In this document: piece by piece, positions 7,586-40,950 of the stretch
How the letters are laid out: every line of letters begins with the position of its first letter
How positions within the stretch are numbered: the stretch's first letter is position 1
From: Acetobacterium sp. KB-1
GTDB taxonomy: Bacteria; Bacillota; Clostridia; Eubacteriales; Eubacteriaceae
DNA: 64,000 bases
Assembly: GCF_003260995.1 (NCBI RefSeq)
Contig: NZ_CP030040.1
Coordinates: 866,578 to 930,577 of the forward strand
Reading direction: 5' to 3'
Translations under genes and position numbers: made by a program
The notes under the pieces: generated by a model
What the model was told of the DNA's origin: nothing
The model's database searches: none
Seen by the model: only the letters and a program-made list of their open reading frames with translations

Positions 7586-7778
7586 ATATCCCAATCTCCC
7601 CGGTAGAGAAATATCAAAATCTTTGATATTGGCAGCATTAATCACTGCCAGTAAGATGATTCCTCAGTATTCCGGTGCACTTCCCGCTCAATCATCACTA
7701 GAAAAGCGGCCTCACTACCGTGACAATCAGAATCCAACCTGTACATCCCAACGGCTACCGGTAGCAGCCATCATTTTT
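7586..7778. other. Boundary region between lysR and the recombinase cassette
   Basis: No gene seen. It holds a short dyad ATATCAAA/TTTGATAT near 7609-7628 and a 12-bp palindrome GCTACCGGTAGC near 7752. This is the downstream end of the recombinase cassette, so an attachment-site remnant is possible but not demonstrated. Confidence 0.35.
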
Positions 7779-9275
7779 TCAAACCCTTCTCCCACATAAA
7801 AAAGTCACATCTACATCACCATTTTCATCGATACAGATGTGATCTAATGTTTGCCTAACCAGTTCCGGCCTGATTTCATCAATCTTGCCATACTCTGCTA
7901 ACAAGCGTTTCATCTCCCCTGCCCAATAATCTTTCAAAGCATCCCCGCTTGGTTTGATTTCTTCCGGATGATCTACCAGGTGATTCCAGGCGTTTATGAA
8001 TAGTGTTTCGGTAAATTCAACTTTTACTTTGATATCTGTACAATACATTTCTCTTGGCCCAGGAAGTTTTCTTCTATAACTTTTACTGGGATTTTTAGCC
8101 CATAGCGTTCTCGGAGGCGGAGTATACAACTTCCCCTCAATCAGCGTTCCCTTTTTACCTTGAAAGGTTTTGCAGCGCCAGTATTTCTTACCTTCATTAT
8201 CAGTCAACTGCATAAAGGTGCTGCCGCAGGTTCCACAGATGATTCTGCCGGCAAAAGGAAAGCGATCACTTTGATTGTGATATCGACCATTTGTGATGTG
8301 ATGATCTTTACAGTATTGTTCTTGCCGCATAAATTCAAGCTGGACCAGGTCCCAGATTGGTTTTTCAATAATCGCTGGATGGGTATCTTCAACATATGGC
8401 TTCGGTAATTCGCCCTGATTCTTGGCTCGTTTCTTGGTCAAACAGCAGGTATTGTAGGTTTTTTGAAACTGCGTGTCCCCTTTATATTTCTCATTGATCA
8501 ATACTTTTTTAATATGGCTTGGACACCAGCCTTTTCCACCATAAGCCATTGGTACTTTTTCATCTGTCAGTCGTTTTGCGATTTGATACCCACCATAGCC
8601 GTCCAGAAATTCCTGATAAATGCGCCGGACAATGACCGCCTGCTCTTGATTTATTACCAGATTGCCTTCATCATCTTTATCGTAACCCAGAAACTTTCCA
8701 CTGGGAATACTTTTGATGTTGCCCCGCTCATACTGCTTATGAATCCCCCATTTCACATTGTCCGATTGTGTCTGGCTTTCATTTTGAGCAACCGCTAAAA
8801 TCAGGGTGAGTAGCACCTCCCCCTCGCTTTTGTTGGTATGGATGTTTTCTTTTTCTAAATATACATCAATCCCCAGTTCACTAAGTTCCCGAATGCAGTT
8901 AAGGCAATCCAGGGTATTTCGTCCAAACCGGGAAACCGATTTTGTGATGATCATCTCGAACTTGTGCTCCCTGGCATCGGCCATCATTTGGTTGAAGGCT
9001 TCTCTTTTTTTAAGGCTGGTACCCGATATTCCTTCATCCGCATAAATCCCTGAAAAAATATAATCCTCATTTTCCTGCAGCAATCGATTATAGTAATCAA
9101 CCTGGGCTGCATAACTGGATGCCTGCTCATTGCTTCCGCTGGAAACCCGACAATAGGCGGCGACTTGAAGCTTCTTTTTAGTCTCATCTGCACAAGCCTC
9201 AACTTCTTCATTGCTCTTTGTTGACGGGTCTAAGCGAAAAATCTTTCTTAGTTTTTGTGTGATGGTTTTTTCCAT
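7779..9275 (-). CDS. Large serine recombinase 1
   Basis: 498 residues. N-terminal resolvase domain starts at about residue 35 with AAYCRVSSGSNEQ (the serine in RVSS is the nucleophile) and includes IITKSVSRFGRNTLDCL. This is followed by the recombinase domain (GYGGYQIAKRLTDEKVPM) and a zinc ribbon with Cys pairs in IICGTCGSTF and WRCKTF. Such enzymes integrate or excise mobile elements by cutting both strands at short att sites. It is the last of three recombinase genes on the minus strand; its start overlaps the end of recombinase 2 by 68 bp. Degraded copies of its C-terminal part are present at 36.24-36.65 and 38.83-38.97 kb. Confidence 0.93.
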   Translation of the reverse strand: MEKTITQKLRKIFRLDPSTKSNEEVEACADETKKKLQVAAYCRVSSGSNEQASSYAAQVDYYNRLLQENEDYIFSGIYADEGISGTSLKKREAFNQMMADAREHKFEMIITKSVSRFGRNTLDCLNCIRELSELGIDVYLEKENIHTNKSEGEVLLTLILAVAQNESQTQSDNVKWGIHKQYERGNIKSIPSGKFLGYDKDDEGNLVINQEQAVIVRRIYQEFLDGYGGYQIAKRLTDEKVPMAYGGKGWCPSHIKKVLINEKYKGDTQFQKTYNTCCLTKKRAKNQGELPKPYVEDTHPAIIEKPIWDLVQLEFMRQEQYCKDHHITNGRYHNQSDRFPFAGRIICGTCGSTFMQLTDNEGKKYWRCKTFQGKKGTLIEGKLYTPPPRTLWAKNPSKSYRRKLPGPREMYCTDIKVKVEFTETLFINAWNHLVDHPEEIKPSGDALKDYWAGEMKRLLAEYGKIDEIRPELVRQTLDHICIDENGDVDVTFLCGRRV

Positions 9276-10404
9276 AACACTGCTCCTCTACAATTATCTG
9301 TATTTCAGTACTTAATAAATTTTGGTCTTCCATCAATTCTTTTAGAATCTTTTCCTTTATCCGAACGCCCTTACAAACCGATTTTCCTTGTTGCAAATAG
9401 GTTTTACAAATCCAAAAGATTTGTTTCTCATAACCCGTGACGCGAATCAGGGTCTGGTGACAGTATGGGCAAATGAACCTACCTGTAAATGGGTAGGTCT
9501 TTTTTGAACGAGTTTTTCTTAATTCCTGAGCTTTTAACCAGTCTACCTGATCGATAATAGGCGGGAAACAATCACGCACATAATATTTATTTTTTTGTCC
9601 TTTATTCCTTTTCAGGTTTCCTTTCTCATCAACAAACGATTTTTGAAGAAGGCAATCCCCCATATACTTTTCATTCGAAATCACCCGAAGGATTCTTTCC
9701 GAGGTCCAAACCCTTTTAAATTCAATCGGTACTTTTTCTTCATTAAAATCTTTTGCAATCTGATAACCAGAGATTCCCGACAGATAGCGCTTAAAAATTA
9801 ATCTGACAATATCAGCTTCGTTGGGCTTTATCACAGGATTCCGATTCTTATCGGTCGTGTAGCCAAAGACACGGTCCGGACTGTGTAACGTCTTTCCTGC
9901 CTGGTAGTTCTTTTGAATGGACCATTTGATGTTCTGGCTTACTGATTTTCGTTCTGCTTCAGCAAGAGACCCAAGAACTGTTAACATTAACTCCCCTTCA
10001 GCATTAAGGGTATTAATATGGTTTTCTTCAAAAATCACACCAACGTTTAACTGTTTTAATTCCCGGATTGTTTCAAGTAAAAACATGGTATTTCTGGCAA
10101 ATCGAGAAATGCTTTTTGTAATGATTAAATCAATTCCCTGATTTCTTACCGCCTCCATCATGGCATTAAAAGCAGGGCGATCATTCTTAACACCGGATAC
10201 CCCAGCATCTGAATAGATGCCACAAAACTCATAATCCGGATGTGACGTGATTAGACGCTTAAAATACTGTTCCTGGTTCTCCAGTGAATTTAGTTGCAGA
10301 TCGTGACCAGTTGATACCCGAATATAGGCACAGACCCGTTTGAGTTGATGATGTGAAATCCCCTTTCTTTTAGTGATCGTTTTGATTTCTCGATTTTCAG
10401 CCAT
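9208..10404 (-). CDS. Large serine recombinase 2
   Basis: 398 residues, a short member. Catalytic domain CAYIRVSTGHDLQ (nucleophile Ser in RVST) around residues 25-37, IITKSISRFARNTMFLLETI, then the recombinase domain (GISGYQIAKDFNEEKVPIE) and a zinc ribbon (FICPYCHQTL, WICKTY). It begins directly after recombinase 3 (stop TGA, one base, then ATG), so the three genes are translationally linked. Tandem sets of two or three serine recombinases are typical of Bacillota integrative elements, where they act together in integration or excision. Confidence 0.93.
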   Translation of the reverse strand: MAENREIKTITKRKGISHHQLKRVCAYIRVSTGHDLQLNSLENQEQYFKRLITSHPDYEFCGIYSDAGVSGVKNDRPAFNAMMEAVRNQGIDLIITKSISRFARNTMFLLETIRELKQLNVGVIFEENHINTLNAEGELMLTVLGSLAEAERKSVSQNIKWSIQKNYQAGKTLHSPDRVFGYTTDKNRNPVIKPNEADIVRLIFKRYLSGISGYQIAKDFNEEKVPIEFKRVWTSERILRVISNEKYMGDCLLQKSFVDEKGNLKRNKGQKNKYYVRDCFPPIIDQVDWLKAQELRKTRSKKTYPFTGRFICPYCHQTLIRVTGYEKQIFWICKTYLQQGKSVCKGVRIKEKILKELMEDQNLLSTEIQIIVEEQCYGKNHHTKTKKDFSLRPVNKEQ

Positions 10405-10405
10405 C

Positions 10406-11581
10406 TCATATTCCTTTCATTGGCCATTTTATCTCCGCTCCATCTTTAAACCGAAAGTTGACTTCATCCTTGGAGAGAACAACCATCTCTAAAATAGTCC
10501 GACGCCAGAGGGTTTCATCAAACTCTGTGAGTAGCTGGTCGCGTTTTTCAAGAATACCCAGAAAGTCATGAATCTGATTCTTCTGGGCCTCCCGTTTTCT
10601 GATTTCTTCGGTTAAGGCCATATGGCGATTGCGAAGTTTATCATAGCTCTCAGCATAGGTGTTGTACCGGCGCTGGTATTCCTCCTGGTCCATCGCTACC
10701 CGGGTGTTTTCACTGACAAAGGCATCAACCATCATTTCAATGGAGCTGCATTCCTCATCGACTTTCTTCAGTTCTTCCTCTAAATTCTGACAATCTGTTA
10801 GCTTCTCAATCATAAGGCGGTAATTCTCAAAAATCTCTGCTTTATTTTTAATAAGGTGATTCATGACTTCCACGAATATTTTTTTAATGGTTTCATCATA
10901 TAAGTGCGGTGTGCTGCATTTGTCTTTTTCCTTAAACTTGTTATTACACTGCCAGACAGTATGCTGATATTTGCTGCCCGCATGCCAGACTTTGCTACCA
11001 TAGGCACTACCACAATCGCCGCAAATAATCCGGCTGGAGAAACAACTTTGACAAGCTGTATATCCGCCTTTTGATTTTCTTCTCGCAAACTCTTCCTGCA
11101 CCAGGCCAAAGGTTTCTGGTGGAATGATGGCTGGGTGACTGTTTTCAACATAATATTGAGGAACTTCCCCTTCATTTGTTTTTGTTTTTTTAGTCAAGAA
11201 GTCCGTCGTGTAGCGTTTTTGCAGTATTGCATCGCCCTTGTATTTTTCGTTTTTAAGAATGCTGATCACCGTTGACACCGGCCATTTTTGTCTTTTCGTT
11301 GGGCTTAAAATGTTTAATGACATCAACTGTTTGGCAATGGATGATGGCGTGTGACCTTCCAGAAAGAGCTTATAAATAAGTCGAATTGTCATTGCTTCAT
11401 CTTCAACTATCTGCGGCAATCCATTCTCCCCTTTTACATATCCTAAGAAGCTCTTGTAAGGTAGGGAAATATTTCCGTCAGAAAAACTTTTTCGTTTCCC
11501 CCACGTCACATTTTCTGAAATTGAGCGACTTTCGTCTTGTCTAAGGACGCAAAAAATAATACAATTTAGCGTAAATGGCAT
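10406..11581 (-). pseudogene. Large serine recombinase 3, catalytic domain missing
   Basis: 391 codons remain. Homology to serine recombinases starts only at QDESRSISENVTWGKRKSF, which is normally about residue 150, just after the resolvase domain. The recombinase domain (GHTPSSIAKQLMSLNIL), zinc ribbon (IICGDCGSAYG, WQCNNKF) and a C-terminal coiled coil are intact. The N-terminal codons of the open frame come from a palindromic repeat (11537-11614) that sits exactly where homology stops. The nucleophilic serine is therefore lost and the protein, if made, could bind DNA but not recombine. Insertion or deletion at the repeat is the simplest explanation. Confidence 0.85.
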
Positions 11582-11614
11582 TACGCTAAATTGTATTATT
11601 ACGCTAAAAAGTAT
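11537..11614. repeat. 78-bp palindromic repeat, copy A
   Basis: Perfect 20-bp inverted arms (11555-11574 and 11581-11600, AATAATACAATTTAGCGTAA and its complement) are followed by a further direct copy of the ACGCTAAA..GTAT half-unit (11601-11614). A second copy with the same borders (TTGTCTAAG ... GCTAAAAAGTAT) is at 40390-40468. Copy A truncates the recombinase 3 gene. It resembles a MITE or the bound end of an insertion sequence. Confidence 0.75.
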
Positions 11615-11814
11615 GATTAGTCAGCTCCTATCTGAAAACTTTTGTAATTAATTAAAACCTTCATCAATGAAATCAGTACATCGGTCTTTTATAATATGAG
11701 GTATTTATACGCTGAACTATTTCTCATTTTCAGAGACAATTAATTGCTCAAAAATGTAATTCTTAATTAGCATATTATAGTGGGAAAATATAACAACTGT
11801 AGAAGGATTTGAGT
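11615..11814. other. Intergenic DNA without recognisable gene
   Basis: About 200 AT-rich bases; no reading frame or known site recognised. It begins the 1.9-kb zone of gene fragments that extends to 13.5 kb. Confidence 0.4.
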
Positions 11815-36057: not shown

Positions 36058-36236
36058 TCATATCTCCTTTGTTCAAATATCCCTAATCTTATAAAAATGT
36101 TGTATCTGTGTTATCCGTCAATAGATTTCTTCTAATTTTTTACTTTATTCTAACGTTACAGATATTCGATTTCAAGTCATGTCAATTTTTTTGCTGACAT
36201 CTGCGATTGAACATTTTCAGGTTTATTTTTTCACCC

Positions 36237-36650
36237 CCCACCCCACATAAAAAAATCACATCTGCTTCACCATTTTCATCAACACAGATGTGTTCCAAAG
36301 TTTATCTGACCAGCTCCGGTTTTGTTTCTTCTGGATAGTCTATCAGCAAGTACCAGAAGTATATAAATAGTGTTTCGATAAAATTAGCCGTAACTTTGAT
36401 ATAAGTACATTATATTTCTCTAGGAGCCCGATCACTTAGCCAGCGGATATTTTGGGAACGATCGGCCCATACCTTTCTCAGAGGTGGAGTATACATCGTC
36501 CCTTCAATCAGCGTTTCTTTTTTCCCTTGAAAGGTTTTTCATCGCAAATATTTTTTGCTTTCATTATCAGTCAACTGCACAAAGGTACTGCCGCAGATTC
36601 CACATATGATATCTTTACAAATTAATTTTGCAGGGGTTATTTTTCCTTTA
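36237..36650 (-). pseudogene. Serine recombinase C-terminal relic 1
   Basis: Minus-strand translation gives ICGICGSTFVQLTDNESKKY, FQGKKETLIEGTMYTPPLRK and CTYIKVTANFIETLFIYFW, then ELVR, stop, TLEHICVDENGEADVIFLCG. This is colinear with the C-terminal third of recombinase 1 (7779-9275), which has IICGTCGSTFMQLTDNEGKK and so on. Stops interrupt it and about 37 residues are deleted. Remnant of a second, older recombinase cassette. Confidence 0.85.
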
Positions 36651-36756: not shown

Positions 36757-37176
36757 TCAGTCCAGCCCCGCAAACAATTCCCCATTTATTTCAAAAATAT
36801 TCTCTGTAGGAATTTTGGTTTTGTCCAGCATCACAACTATATGATCATAAACATCAATCTTTATGACTATACCAGCGACGGTGATATAGCTGCCACCGTC
36901 TTTCATCTCGTCCGGCTGAAAGTAGGTGATGGAGACTTGGGGCCGGCTGGCAATCTGTTCGATCAGCAGATTCAACCGCAATTCAATCTCTTTCTTGGCA
37001 TCCTCAGTAAGCTCCTTGCGCTCCCGTGTGAGCCGAGCTGTTTCCATGATAGCATCCCCATATTTGGTAAGTGCTGCAAAGGGCGAAAACTGCGCCGCTC
37101 GATCGGTAATTGGCATCGGGGTGCGGGTAAGCGAAACGTGATGAGGCAGGTGGATAATGTCATCATATGAACTCAT
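36757..37176 (-). CDS. YolD-like protein
   Basis: 139 residues. DIIHLPHHVSLTRTPMPITD RAAQFSPFAAL near the N-terminus and ITVAGIVIKIDVYDHIVVML near the C-terminus are typical of YolD-family proteins. These small proteins are encoded next to Y-family polymerases in Bacillota and are thought to interact with them functionally. The start codon overlaps the stop of the upstream polymerase gene (TAATG), so the two are translationally coupled. Confidence 0.85.
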   Translation of the reverse strand: MSSYDDIIHLPHHVSLTRTPMPITDRAAQFSPFAALTKYGDAIMETARLTRERKELTEDAKKEIELRLNLLIEQIASRPQVSITYFQPDEMKDGGSYITVAGIVIKIDVYDHIVVMLDKTKIPTENIFEINGELFAGLD

Positions 37177-38705
37177 TATGCTTTATGTCCTCCGATCTGA
37201 TCATTTCGATCCCTGGTGGTGGCCCCTTCTTCCAGATTCATACCCTTGAGGATTGCGTTCTTGCCAAATTTTTTCTTAATGTCCAGGATGGATTTTTGCA
37301 TCTCTTTCTCTCTTTCAAGCTCTGCTTCTTCCGCTGCCTGCTGCTTTTCCAAGGCAGCATAATCGGTAAAAAGGTCGAGTTGTTCATATGAAGCAGCTTT
37401 GGGCGCTGATGCTTCGGGGATGACATGGTTTGCGGTTATATTCACTCGGCGCACCAGCAGTCGCTTATCTATAATGCGGTCGAAGAGCATTGTAACCGCA
37501 TCAATTATGTACTTGGACGAGGCCGTGTACCTGCCAAGATTCTCGGTGCCGTGGGCATGTTTAGGCAACTGCCGGCCATAGTGGTCTGAGGTGACTTCAC
37601 CCTTATAAGATTGCCTGAGCTCTGGGTCCTGCAAATTTTGGATGTCATAACCGACTGTTAACACCAACTGATCCGTTACCATTTGCTTGTCGACTAAATT
37701 CAAGGCCAGAAGATCGGCCATCTCCCGTACGATGAGCCTGGCTTTATCGACGGGATAAGGGTACTGTAAGACCTGGCCGGAGCTAATGCTGTTAGTGGTT
37801 GGCTTATAGGCTTTAACATCTGCAATCGTGCATGGTTCCCAGCCCCAGGCATGATCGATGAGTAGCTCCGCATTTACGCCAAACAGCTTGTAGAGCAGGG
37901 CTTCATTATAGAAATCCCCCATTTCCCCGAGGGAACACCTGGCCACATCGCCCATAGTTAAAAGGCCGTGAGCCTCAAGCTTTTTGGCGGTGGCCTTGCC
38001 TACTCGCCAGAAATCGGTAAGCGGTCGATGGCCCCATAGGGATTGACGATAGCTCATCTCGGTAAGCTCTGAAATACGTACACCGTTTTTATCTGGTTTG
38101 ACATGCTTGGCTCCGATGTCCATAGCAATCTTGGCGAGATACAAATTTGTACCGATGCCCGCTGCAGCTGTGATGCCCGTGGTTTTCAATACATCCCGAA
38201 TGATTTTCATGGTCAGTTCACGAGCAGTCAGCTTGTAGGTATTCAGATAATTTGTCACATCCATGAAAACCTCATCGATGGAATACACATGAATATCTTC
38301 AGGAGCGATATATTTGAGATATACATTGTAAATACGTGTGCTATAATCAACATACAGCTCCATGCGAGGCGAGGCTACGATGTAATCCAGTTCCAGTTCC
38401 GGTGATGATTGAAGTTCTGAATCATCATAAGAGGAACCGGTAAAAATGCGATTTGGTGCGTATCGCTGTCGCTGGGCATTGGCTTCTTTCACCTTCTGCA
38501 CTACCTCGAACAGTCTTGCTCTACCGGAAATACCGTGGGTTTTCAGGGGCGGCGATACCGCAAGGCAAATGGTTTTTTCTGTTCGAGCAGCGTCGGCCAC
38601 CACCAAGTTTGTGGTCAGTGGATCAAGCTGACGTTCGATACACTCCACCGAAGCGTAAAAACTTTTCAAATCTATGGCAATATATGTTCTGTTTTTCACA
38701 CTCAC
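37176..38705 (-). CDS. Y-family DNA polymerase (UmuC/DinB-like)
   Basis: 509 residues. Palm motif YIAIDLKSFYASVECIERQL with the metal-binding Asp at the start, VYSIDEVFMDVTNYLNTYKL (SIDE motif) near residue 140, then GIGTNLYLAKIAMDIGAK and the thumb HhH FWRVGKATAKKLEAHGLLTM. Little-finger and long C-terminal region (KHAHGTENLGRYTASSKYI) as in YqjW/UvrX-type polymerases found on mobile elements. Performs error-prone lesion bypass after DNA damage. Operon with yolD-like gene. I did not find a clear LexA box upstream. Confidence 0.93.
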   Translation of the reverse strand: MSVKNRTYIAIDLKSFYASVECIERQLDPLTTNLVVADAARTEKTICLAVSPPLKTHGISGRARLFEVVQKVKEANAQRQRYAPNRIFTGSSYDDSELQSSPELELDYIVASPRMELYVDYSTRIYNVYLKYIAPEDIHVYSIDEVFMDVTNYLNTYKLTARELTMKIIRDVLKTTGITAAAGIGTNLYLAKIAMDIGAKHVKPDKNGVRISELTEMSYRQSLWGHRPLTDFWRVGKATAKKLEAHGLLTMGDVARCSLGEMGDFYNEALLYKLFGVNAELLIDHAWGWEPCTIADVKAYKPTTNSISSGQVLQYPYPVDKARLIVREMADLLALNLVDKQMVTDQLVLTVGYDIQNLQDPELRQSYKGEVTSDHYGRQLPKHAHGTENLGRYTASSKYIIDAVTMLFDRIIDKRLLVRRVNITANHVIPEASAPKAASYEQLDLFTDYAALEKQQAAEEAELEREKEMQKSILDIKKKFGKNAILKGMNLEEGATTRDRNDQIGGHKA

Positions 38706-38825
38706 AGCCCCTTTTTTTTACTTTTTTAGGTTACATATTATACCACATTCTGCTTCTAAATTATACCGACGAGAGGGGGCGATTGTCCCCCTATGAAGAA
38801 TGTTTTGAAAGAGCTTTTTATTTTT

Positions 38826-38966
38826 TCAAACCCTCACCCCACATAAAAAAATCACCTCCGTCTCCCCATTTTCATTAACGCCGATGTGATCCAATGTTTG
38901 CCTAACCAGCTCCGGTTTAATTTCGTCTATCTTCCCATACTCGGTTAACAAGCGCTTCATCTCCCA
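38826..38966 (-). pseudogene. Serine recombinase C-terminal relic 2
   Basis: Minus-strand reading [34 protein letters not shown], ending FLCGV, matches the last 45 residues of recombinase 1 (EMKRLLAEYGKIDEIRPELV). It is joined directly to the hsdM fragment, marking a deletion junction near 38966. Confidence 0.85.
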
Positions 38967-39109
38967 CGCACGATATCTGATATGTACTTAAGGAAAATCA
39001 GTCCCAGTACCACGTGTTTATATTCACTGGCATCCATGCTGCCTCTCAGTTTGTCTGCCGCTTTCCAAAGTGTCTCTTCAAATCCAATGTTTCCTGTGTT
39101 CTCAGCCAT
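38967..39109 (-). pseudogene. Type I restriction-modification methylase HsdM, N-terminal fragment
   Basis: ATG 39109 with TTTGGAGGGAA upstream starts [20 protein letters not shown], then [25 protein letters not shown]. This is the conserved first helical segment of HsdM. Homology stops after about 46 residues, at the recombinase relic. Evidence that a type I restriction system was once here and was deleted. Confidence 0.85.
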
Positions 39110-40209: not shown

Positions 40210-40389
40210 ACTTTAGTTCAAAACTTTTCTACACTTGGCCGATCAATCTAAATTCCAACTACCAACCGTTTCATTTTTATCAAATTTGTATTAGCTCTTA
40301 AATCCCTCTGCAAAGCCATTTCTTTCAAAAAATACAAAAGCCACCTCATCACAAGGTGGCCTTAATTGTATCAAAATTTGAGTTTTTAT

Positions 40390-40468
40390 TTGTCTAAGAA
40401 CGTAAATTATAATACAATTTAGCGGTATTGTCAATTACGCTAAATTGTATTATTACGCTAAAAAGTAT
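40390..40468. repeat. 78-bp palindromic repeat, copy B
   Basis: Same borders and core as 11537-11614: TTGTCTAAG ... TAATACAATTTAGCG (40410-40424) ... CGCTAAATTGTATTA (40438-40452) ... ACGCTAAAAAGTAT. The loop and a few positions differ. An IS630 fragment begins about 10 bp downstream. Confidence 0.75.
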
Positions 40469-40474
40469 AATAAT

Positions 40475-40950
40475 TAAATATTTGGACCGGTATGTACCGA
40501 CTTATGGGAAACATCGCGGTGTAAAATTGGTCGGAAATCTTAACTACGAAACCGGTGAAGTTTACTGCGAAGGAGCATGAAACCTATGATGCAGCGGTTT
40601 TCCTCGGATTCCTTGAAAATTTACTTTCAAGGAATCCGGATGGTAAGACCGTTCTGATTCTGGACAACGCACGTATCCATCACGCAAAACTGCTGATTCC
40701 CTTTCTTACTGAGAATGCTGACCGGCTCCAACTGATTTTCCTACCGCCTTACAACCCGAATCTGAATCTCATTGAGGGACTCTGGAAGTGGCTGAAGGAA
40801 CGGGTCGTTAATAATGTATTCTATCATTCTGTTTCTGAAATACGTAAGAATGTTGCTGATTTCTTAACCTCCATTCAGTCCGGGAAGCGGTCATTCAGAG
40901 ACTGTGTTTCAAGTTATAGCTATTCAAAATCTTTAATCAATTATATATAG
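40475..40950 (+). pseudogene. IS630-family transposase, C-terminal half with frameshift
   Basis: From about 40485, one frame reads YGKHRGVKLVGNLNYETGEV Y and then stops; after a frameshift near 40570, the next frame reads EHETYDAAVFLGFLE, then TVLILDNARIHHAKLL (DDE Asp), FLPPYNPNLNLIEGLWKWLK (DDE Glu) and a normal end. The N-terminal half is missing. Dead IS remnant. Confidence 0.85.

Follow-up and report, generated by a model that had tools for sequence, protein, structure and literature searches.

Three serine recombinase genes of Acetobacterium sp. KB-1 look like debris of an island pile-up beside the tmRNA gene

Introduction

In the staphylococcal cassette chromosome (SCC) elements, two co-transcribed serine recombinases, CcrA and CcrB, serve as one integration module. 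A paired module of this kind, which we set beside CcrA/CcrB by description only, is also contained in a row of three serine recombinase genes (rec1, rec2 and a shortened rec3) in the chromosome of Acetobacterium sp. KB-1, which is the subject of this study. The analyzed stretch of 64,000 nucleotides, called the window below, covers positions 866,578-930,577 of contig C1, the 3.99-Mb chromosome of this strain (G000), and was compared with a set of 67 genomes of the order, 19 of them of the genus Acetobacterium (comparison genomes are given by codes such as G012).

The closest described systems are the ssrA-specific islands of Dehalococcoides, which carry the CcrB-like integrase DsiB (PMC3146451). 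They resemble the Acetobacterium locus in having a large serine recombinase at ssrA, in their tandem arrangement, in their varied cargo and in the absence of an integration module from some of them. Their crossover was inferred to lie in the T-loop within a 20-bp direct repeat of ssrA and they use a DsiA/DsiB pair, whereas the breakpoint described here lies at the terminal CA of the transfer-messenger RNA (tmRNA), with TG alone being common to the recombining sides. Single elements with three serine recombinase genes were described among the integrative and conjugative elements (ICEs) of Streptococcus suis (PMC5053989); in contrast, the third gene of the window is best read as the remnant of a second pair. 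None of the results of our literature search mentioned the Acetobacterium array described here.

Results

An earlier note on this DNA, made from the sequence alone, had described a three-gene recombinase cassette with one catalytically dead member, and three minus-strand open reading frames (ORFs) are indeed present at this place. The genes rec1 (7779..9275, minus strand, 498 amino acids, B-type) and rec2 (9208..10404, minus strand, 398 amino acids, A-type) are complete and overlap by 68 bp, and both products contain an N-terminal Resolvase domain with the catalytic serine as well as Recombinase and Zn-ribbon domains (Pfam) and qualify as large serine recombinases. The third ORF, called drec3 (10406..11581, minus strand), ends one base before the ATG of rec2 and corresponds to the 3' portion of a gene for a large serine recombinase of the B-type, with positions 10406-11539 derived from rec3. 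Its product retains only the Recombinase and Zn-ribbon domains and does not qualify as a large serine recombinase; as the Resolvase domain is missing, the note was right in regarding it as catalytically dead.

The same strain contains an intact rec3 at 932.6-934.2 kb, about 55 kb away, which is 88% identical to the shortened copy over 383 amino acids and has an open frame of 556 amino acids. It is preceded by another recombinase gene, recB, with a 4-bp overlap, and further upstream by a holin gene and tail-type phage genes, but no rec2-rec1 genes adjoin it. In G012, the four genes recB-rec3-rec2-rec1 lie in one row, with rec1 broken by an insertion that resembles IS3 by eye. Two side observations concern the prophage around the intact rec3. 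A partial methyltransferase-like ORF (assigned by eye; stretch L020, 2076-2579) abuts rec3, with no other part of this ORF found in the stretches read, and a collagen-like protein with Gly-X-Y repeats is encoded among the tail genes (L020, 8067-9569), whose repeats cross-align between G000 and G012.

As rec2 is closest to recB (42% identity by blastp) and rec1 to rec3 (43%), the four genes appear to represent two A-B pairs, each consisting of adjacent overlapping A-type and B-type genes. In a phylogenetic tree that included the first (A) and second (B) recombinases of a Syntrophomonadaceae phage (PV036453) and an S. suis phage (MN270266), rec2 grouped with the phage A genes and rec1 and rec3 with the phage B genes, though not with strong support; recB fell outside both groups on a long branch, and only 3 of the 11 inner branches were strongly supported. 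Both phages contain a gene for an A-type recombinase of about 400 amino acids followed by an overlapping B-type gene, as in rec2-rec1 and recB-rec3, and each holds a separate third serine recombinase gene elsewhere, not adjacent to the pair. Two matching places were found in 17 of the 20 phage records listed and three in the other 3. As judged from its sequence, rec2-rec1 is a complete overlapping pair of the kind carried by phages, and rec3 is probably a member of the other pair, recB-rec3, rather than part of a trio with rec1 and rec2. The most fitting description of the "cassette" with its three real ORFs is a complete pair next to the 3' remainder of a gene from another pair; in contrast to the two phages, it has no adjoining phage genes.

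The homology of drec3 to the intact copies stops on the DNA level at window position 11539, exactly where a palindromic repeat starts. The intact rec3 genes of G000, G012 and G015 read CGTCTTG|AGCC at this point, whereas the cut copies of G000 and G016 read CGTCTTG|TCTAAG, with the TG at 11538..11539 as the putative crossover dinucleotide. The earlier note was right in giving weight to the break at this 78-bp palindromic repeat, but the first 14 codons of the ORF already consist of repeat sequence, and its ATG, which overlaps the variable loop of the palindrome in G000, is not present in the fusion of G016. Hence rec3 is truncated in two species by the same break; the cassette of G016 shows 94% DNA identity to that of the window and has other neighbouring genes. 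A separate 5' half of rec3 was not seen in G000 by a whole-genome search with rec2 as query (G016 was not searched).

The repeat, called the block in the following, comprises 78 bp from the TG at 11538 to 11615 and contains a perfect 46-bp palindrome (11555-11600) with 20-bp arms and a 6-nt loop, followed by a third arm in direct orientation (11599-11618). Arm sequences with up to 3 mismatches occurred 5 times in the window at 0.03 expected, so the repeat is not due to chance. The loop (window 11575-11580) varies between copies and is 6-7 nt long; in G000, the loop of one copy (ATGGCA) is the reverse complement of that of another (TGCCAT). Far from being confined to the cassette, the block is dispersed in nine copies over 6 of the 67 genomes of the order, all belonging to the 19 of Acetobacterium (three copies in G000, two in G016 and one each in G003, G012, G015 and G018), and block-bearing contigs include those of A. 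dehalogenans and A. wieringae. The exact palindrome pattern was found in 5 stretches of a genome collection and in 1 of a virus collection (records near the window may be left out of these counts), and we read the matches outside the genus, in one Burkholderiales and one virus contig, as chance. All three blocks of G000 have the same orientation with ssrA on their right. In G016, two direct copies bound a 33-kb stretch with the cassette as its right end. The rec3-linked blocks of G000 and G016 show 5 differences in 58 alignment columns, and each is closer to the block of another genome (3 differences to G018 and 2 to G015, respectively). Nothing is common to G000 and G016 to the right of these blocks within the 378 bp remaining on the G016 contig. 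Searches for an empty site with the flanking sequences ended at ssrA for the sequence left of the first block and at dispersed repeats for the right flank in G016, while the matches listed for the sequence right of the rec3 block are paralogues of a methyltransferase-like ORF at its far end.

What the block joins became apparent from its other copies. A 74-bp repeat ending with TTTG lies left of two of the three blocks of G000 and of the block of G012, and we examined 20 places with this repeat, which are part of a longer list. At seven of them, in six genomes (G000, G001 twice, G002, G010, G012 and G015), the repeat continues as GTGGAGG..GTCGAACCC into the 3' end of the tmRNA gene; therefore, it represents the sequence that immediately follows ssrA and contains a terminator-like hairpin. 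At three places (G000 835,539, window 40392 and G012 around 1,499,796) it runs into the block instead. The tmRNA of G000 was located by ARAGORN at 978,802-979,200 on the minus strand, and bases 978,802-978,803, the TG of the junction, correspond to its terminal CA. In a separate observation, two ssrA 3' ends with a terminator-repeat copy each lie about 10 kb apart in G001 (L140, 10052-10108, and L141, 8374-8447).

The remaining two combinations involve LSR504, a complete large serine recombinase of 504 amino acids in G015, whose gene runs directly into the block (..TCTTGTATG|TATAAG). Unlike in the DsiA/DsiB pair, no second recombinase gene was seen next to it in the part of G015 that was listed (ORFs of at least 100 amino acids, judged by eye). 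All three of its relatives with more than 80% identity in other genomes (G009 95%, G013 86% and G011 81%) end with ..TG|GTGGAGG-ssrA instead, placing a serine integrase gene at the ssrA 3' junction in these three genomes, but not in G000. If the terminator side is called B, the ssrA side B', the LSR504 side P and the block P', all four combinations (B|B', B|P', P|B' and P|P') are found, always with the same breakpoint and a TG core, which makes up an attB/attL/attR/attP pattern; only this TG is common to the B' and P' sides. From these sequences, the block resembles an attachment half-site, putatively the island-side half P' (window 11540..11615, plus strand). The junction in G003 is probably another B|P', judging from the last 14 bases of the block's left partner, which equal those of the B half of G010. 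The site is repeated in tandem direct orientation in G000: junctions lie at 835.5, 878.1 and 907.0 kb, followed by ssrA at 978.8 kb. At 907.0 kb, the sequence that follows ssrA is present in a copy (window 40319..40392, with TTTG as final bases, the putative chromosomal half) that is joined to the second P' block of the window (40393..40468, plus strand) in an attL-like manner. A transposase fragment, IS630-like by eye, lies right of this second block (40480-40950), and the same junction is present in G015. A second class of junctions, TTTG after the terminator followed by GTGGAGG, a few ssrA-like bases and then ..CCGGTTCRAGGTGACAAT, was seen at L137 1399-1472 and 14445-14518 and at L135 1137-1210, and perhaps stems from another integrase.

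Two other identities of the block were considered and rejected. It is not the end of an element with three tyrosine-recombinase-like genes in a row (presumably RIT-like) beside the block of G012 (L067, 6301-9474), because that element has its own ends inside an IS66-like element, as judged by eye and without a family search. A dif/Xer-like site, suggested by the arm spacing, does not agree with the presence of the block in only 6 of the 67 genomes and with the junctions at ssrA and LSR504; the true dif site was not searched.

Among the other features of the window, the remnant of a gene which we take to be TspO-like (7600..7770, minus strand) lies left of the recombinases; an intact relative is present in G004, and G000 itself contains a further intact copy at another place. 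The homology to 9 of 10 other rec1-like places begins at 7770-7775, beside the stop codon of rec1, with six different left flanks, as would be expected if the rec2-rec1 pair had its attachment site there. A rec1-like gene in two fragments (36222-36331 and 36317-36610; together 36222..36610, minus strand) adjoins YolD-like and ImpB/UmuC-like genes (36757..38705, minus strand; YolD scores under the Pfam cut-off), an association also seen in G016 and G017, and a third rec1-like 3' fragment follows at 38819..38975 (minus strand).

The 33-kb stretch of G016 contains the Wadjet genes jetA to jetD (L065, 2117-8834; assignment tested), and a copy with jetA, jetB and a partial jetC (by likeness) occurs near ssrA in G017 (L074, 7732-10533). 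Both sets have YolD-UmuC-like genes and the 3' fragment of a rec1-like gene as neighbours. In G000, genes for a DrmD-like helicase and a type III restriction-modification system lie near ssrA (L026, 4288-11619).

Discussion

We directly observed the junction sequences, the gene content and the same break in two species, and propose on this basis that the cut in rec3 is the scar of an ssrA-targeting serine-integrase island which recombined at a TG inside rec3, with loss of the 5' half, within an array of such islands. We assign a probability of about 0.7 to this interpretation. The region would be part of an array in which mobile islands have accumulated beside the ssrA 3' end, presumably by successive integration. 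LSR504 would recombine an attP at the 3' end of its own gene (..TATG|T(C/A)TAAG-block) with the attB behind the terminator (..TTTG|GTGGAGGCG..), and the 78-bp block would remain as the P' half at the start of the island. A phage carrying recB-rec3 may once have settled beside rec2-rec1, so that its pair came to lie just upstream of the other one. Crossover at the TG in rec3, by LSR504 or a relative, would then have fused the 3' part of rec3 to an island's P' half; rec3 takes the place of the chromosomal half here, because the cut copies read CGTCTTG|TCTAAG. The 5' part of rec3, recB and the phage body may have been lost afterwards or together with the insertion in one deletion.

Several observations weigh against this history. 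LSR504 and both island ends occur together in no genome examined, the attR-like junctions of G009, G011 and G013 are without a block, and G000 itself contains no close LSR504 relative (best match 36% at a limit of 1e-30). The site in rec3 matches attB at 14 of 48 positions, and 147 of the 285 TG sites in a 2.3-kb stretch match equally well or better; the idea that rec3 mimics attB is not supported, since the match is no better than that of an average TG site. A TG at the break is expected by chance in about 1 of 16 cases. The conserved P' side extends over 76 bp, which is longer than the usual half-site of a serine integrase of about 25 bp. For two of the nine blocks (G016 C55:63 and G018), the sequence joined on the left could be assigned to none of the named halves. 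Finally, 10 of the 20 terminator repeats lead neither into the full ssrA nor into the block (four continue with GTGGAGG and then other DNA, six with unrelated DNA), so the repeat has further partners.

Among the alternatives, it is doubtful that drec3 has been retained because its product binds DNA via the Recombinase and Zn-ribbon domains and acts as an accessory or dominant-negative protein, a role of the kind the earlier note had already raised. The frame is open in both species, 12 of the 16 changes private to the G000 copy fall on third positions, and the ratio of nonsynonymous to synonymous substitution rates (dN/dS) between the two truncated copies is 0.076 (38 synonymous and 13 nonsynonymous differences). 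However, the start codon is not conserved, and the same part of intact rec3 pairs shows similar dN/dS values of 0.059-0.087, so the selection may be older than the cut. Either it predates recent cuts, or the stump was kept. Near the break the G016 copy is nearer to the intact rec3 of G015, as expected from separate cuts, if by few sites: up to alignment position 300, it shares 7 derived sites with G015 and 3 with the G000 copy, but 2 and 8, respectively, beyond this position; the third pattern (G000 with G015) occurs at 5 sites. This suggests that the two cuts were separate events, or that a later exchange took place. We lean towards regarding the stump as a non-functional remnant.

It is unlikely that rec3 is a true secondary attachment site of ssrA islands that was hit separately in two Acetobacterium lineages, in which case an arriving island would destroy the integrase gene of a rival, and the dead but expressed DNA-binding stump could interfere with that rival. 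Still more improbable is that the block is a small non-autonomous transposon, like a miniature inverted-repeat transposable element, or a transposon end inserted into rec3. Its dispersal, palindromic structure, sharp ends and variable flanks would agree with this, but one right flank is combined with two different left flanks (window position 40k and G015), the converse, one left flank with two different right flanks, is seen in two cases (the terminator half at 835k and 907k, and rec3 in G000 and G016), and the junctions of ssrA and LSR504 share the breakpoint of the block.

Least credible is the view of the earlier note that the three recombinases act together and that the loss of one froze the element: the genes are tightly coupled, G012 has four overlapping or adjacent ones in a row and the streptococcal ICEs provide a precedent for three, but no operon with three complete recombinases was found (rec3 being truncated in G000 and G016 and rec1 interrupted among the four genes of G012), the rec2-rec1 pair is complete, the similarities fit two A-B pairs even if the tree lacks strong support, the pairs of the two phages have no adjacent third gene, and in the same strain rec3 also exists intact, next to a partner of its own and without rec2-rec1 beside it, an observation which the note itself had named as speaking against its model.

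Returning to the island scar as our preferred explanation, tandem ssrA islands with serine recombinases are already known from Dehalococcoides, and the window adds a further case with an unusual but explainable scar. What appeared as a three-enzyme machine becomes legible as a recombination scar, and the three genes look like the debris of an island pile-up beside the tmRNA gene. All four attachment-site types of LSR504, a predicted ssrA-targeting serine integrase, are represented in acetogenic bacteria, which makes this enzyme a possible tool for genome integration. Moreover, the arrangement suggests a route by which islands with anti-phage (Wadjet) and other cargo accumulate beside the tmRNA gene in Acetobacterium.

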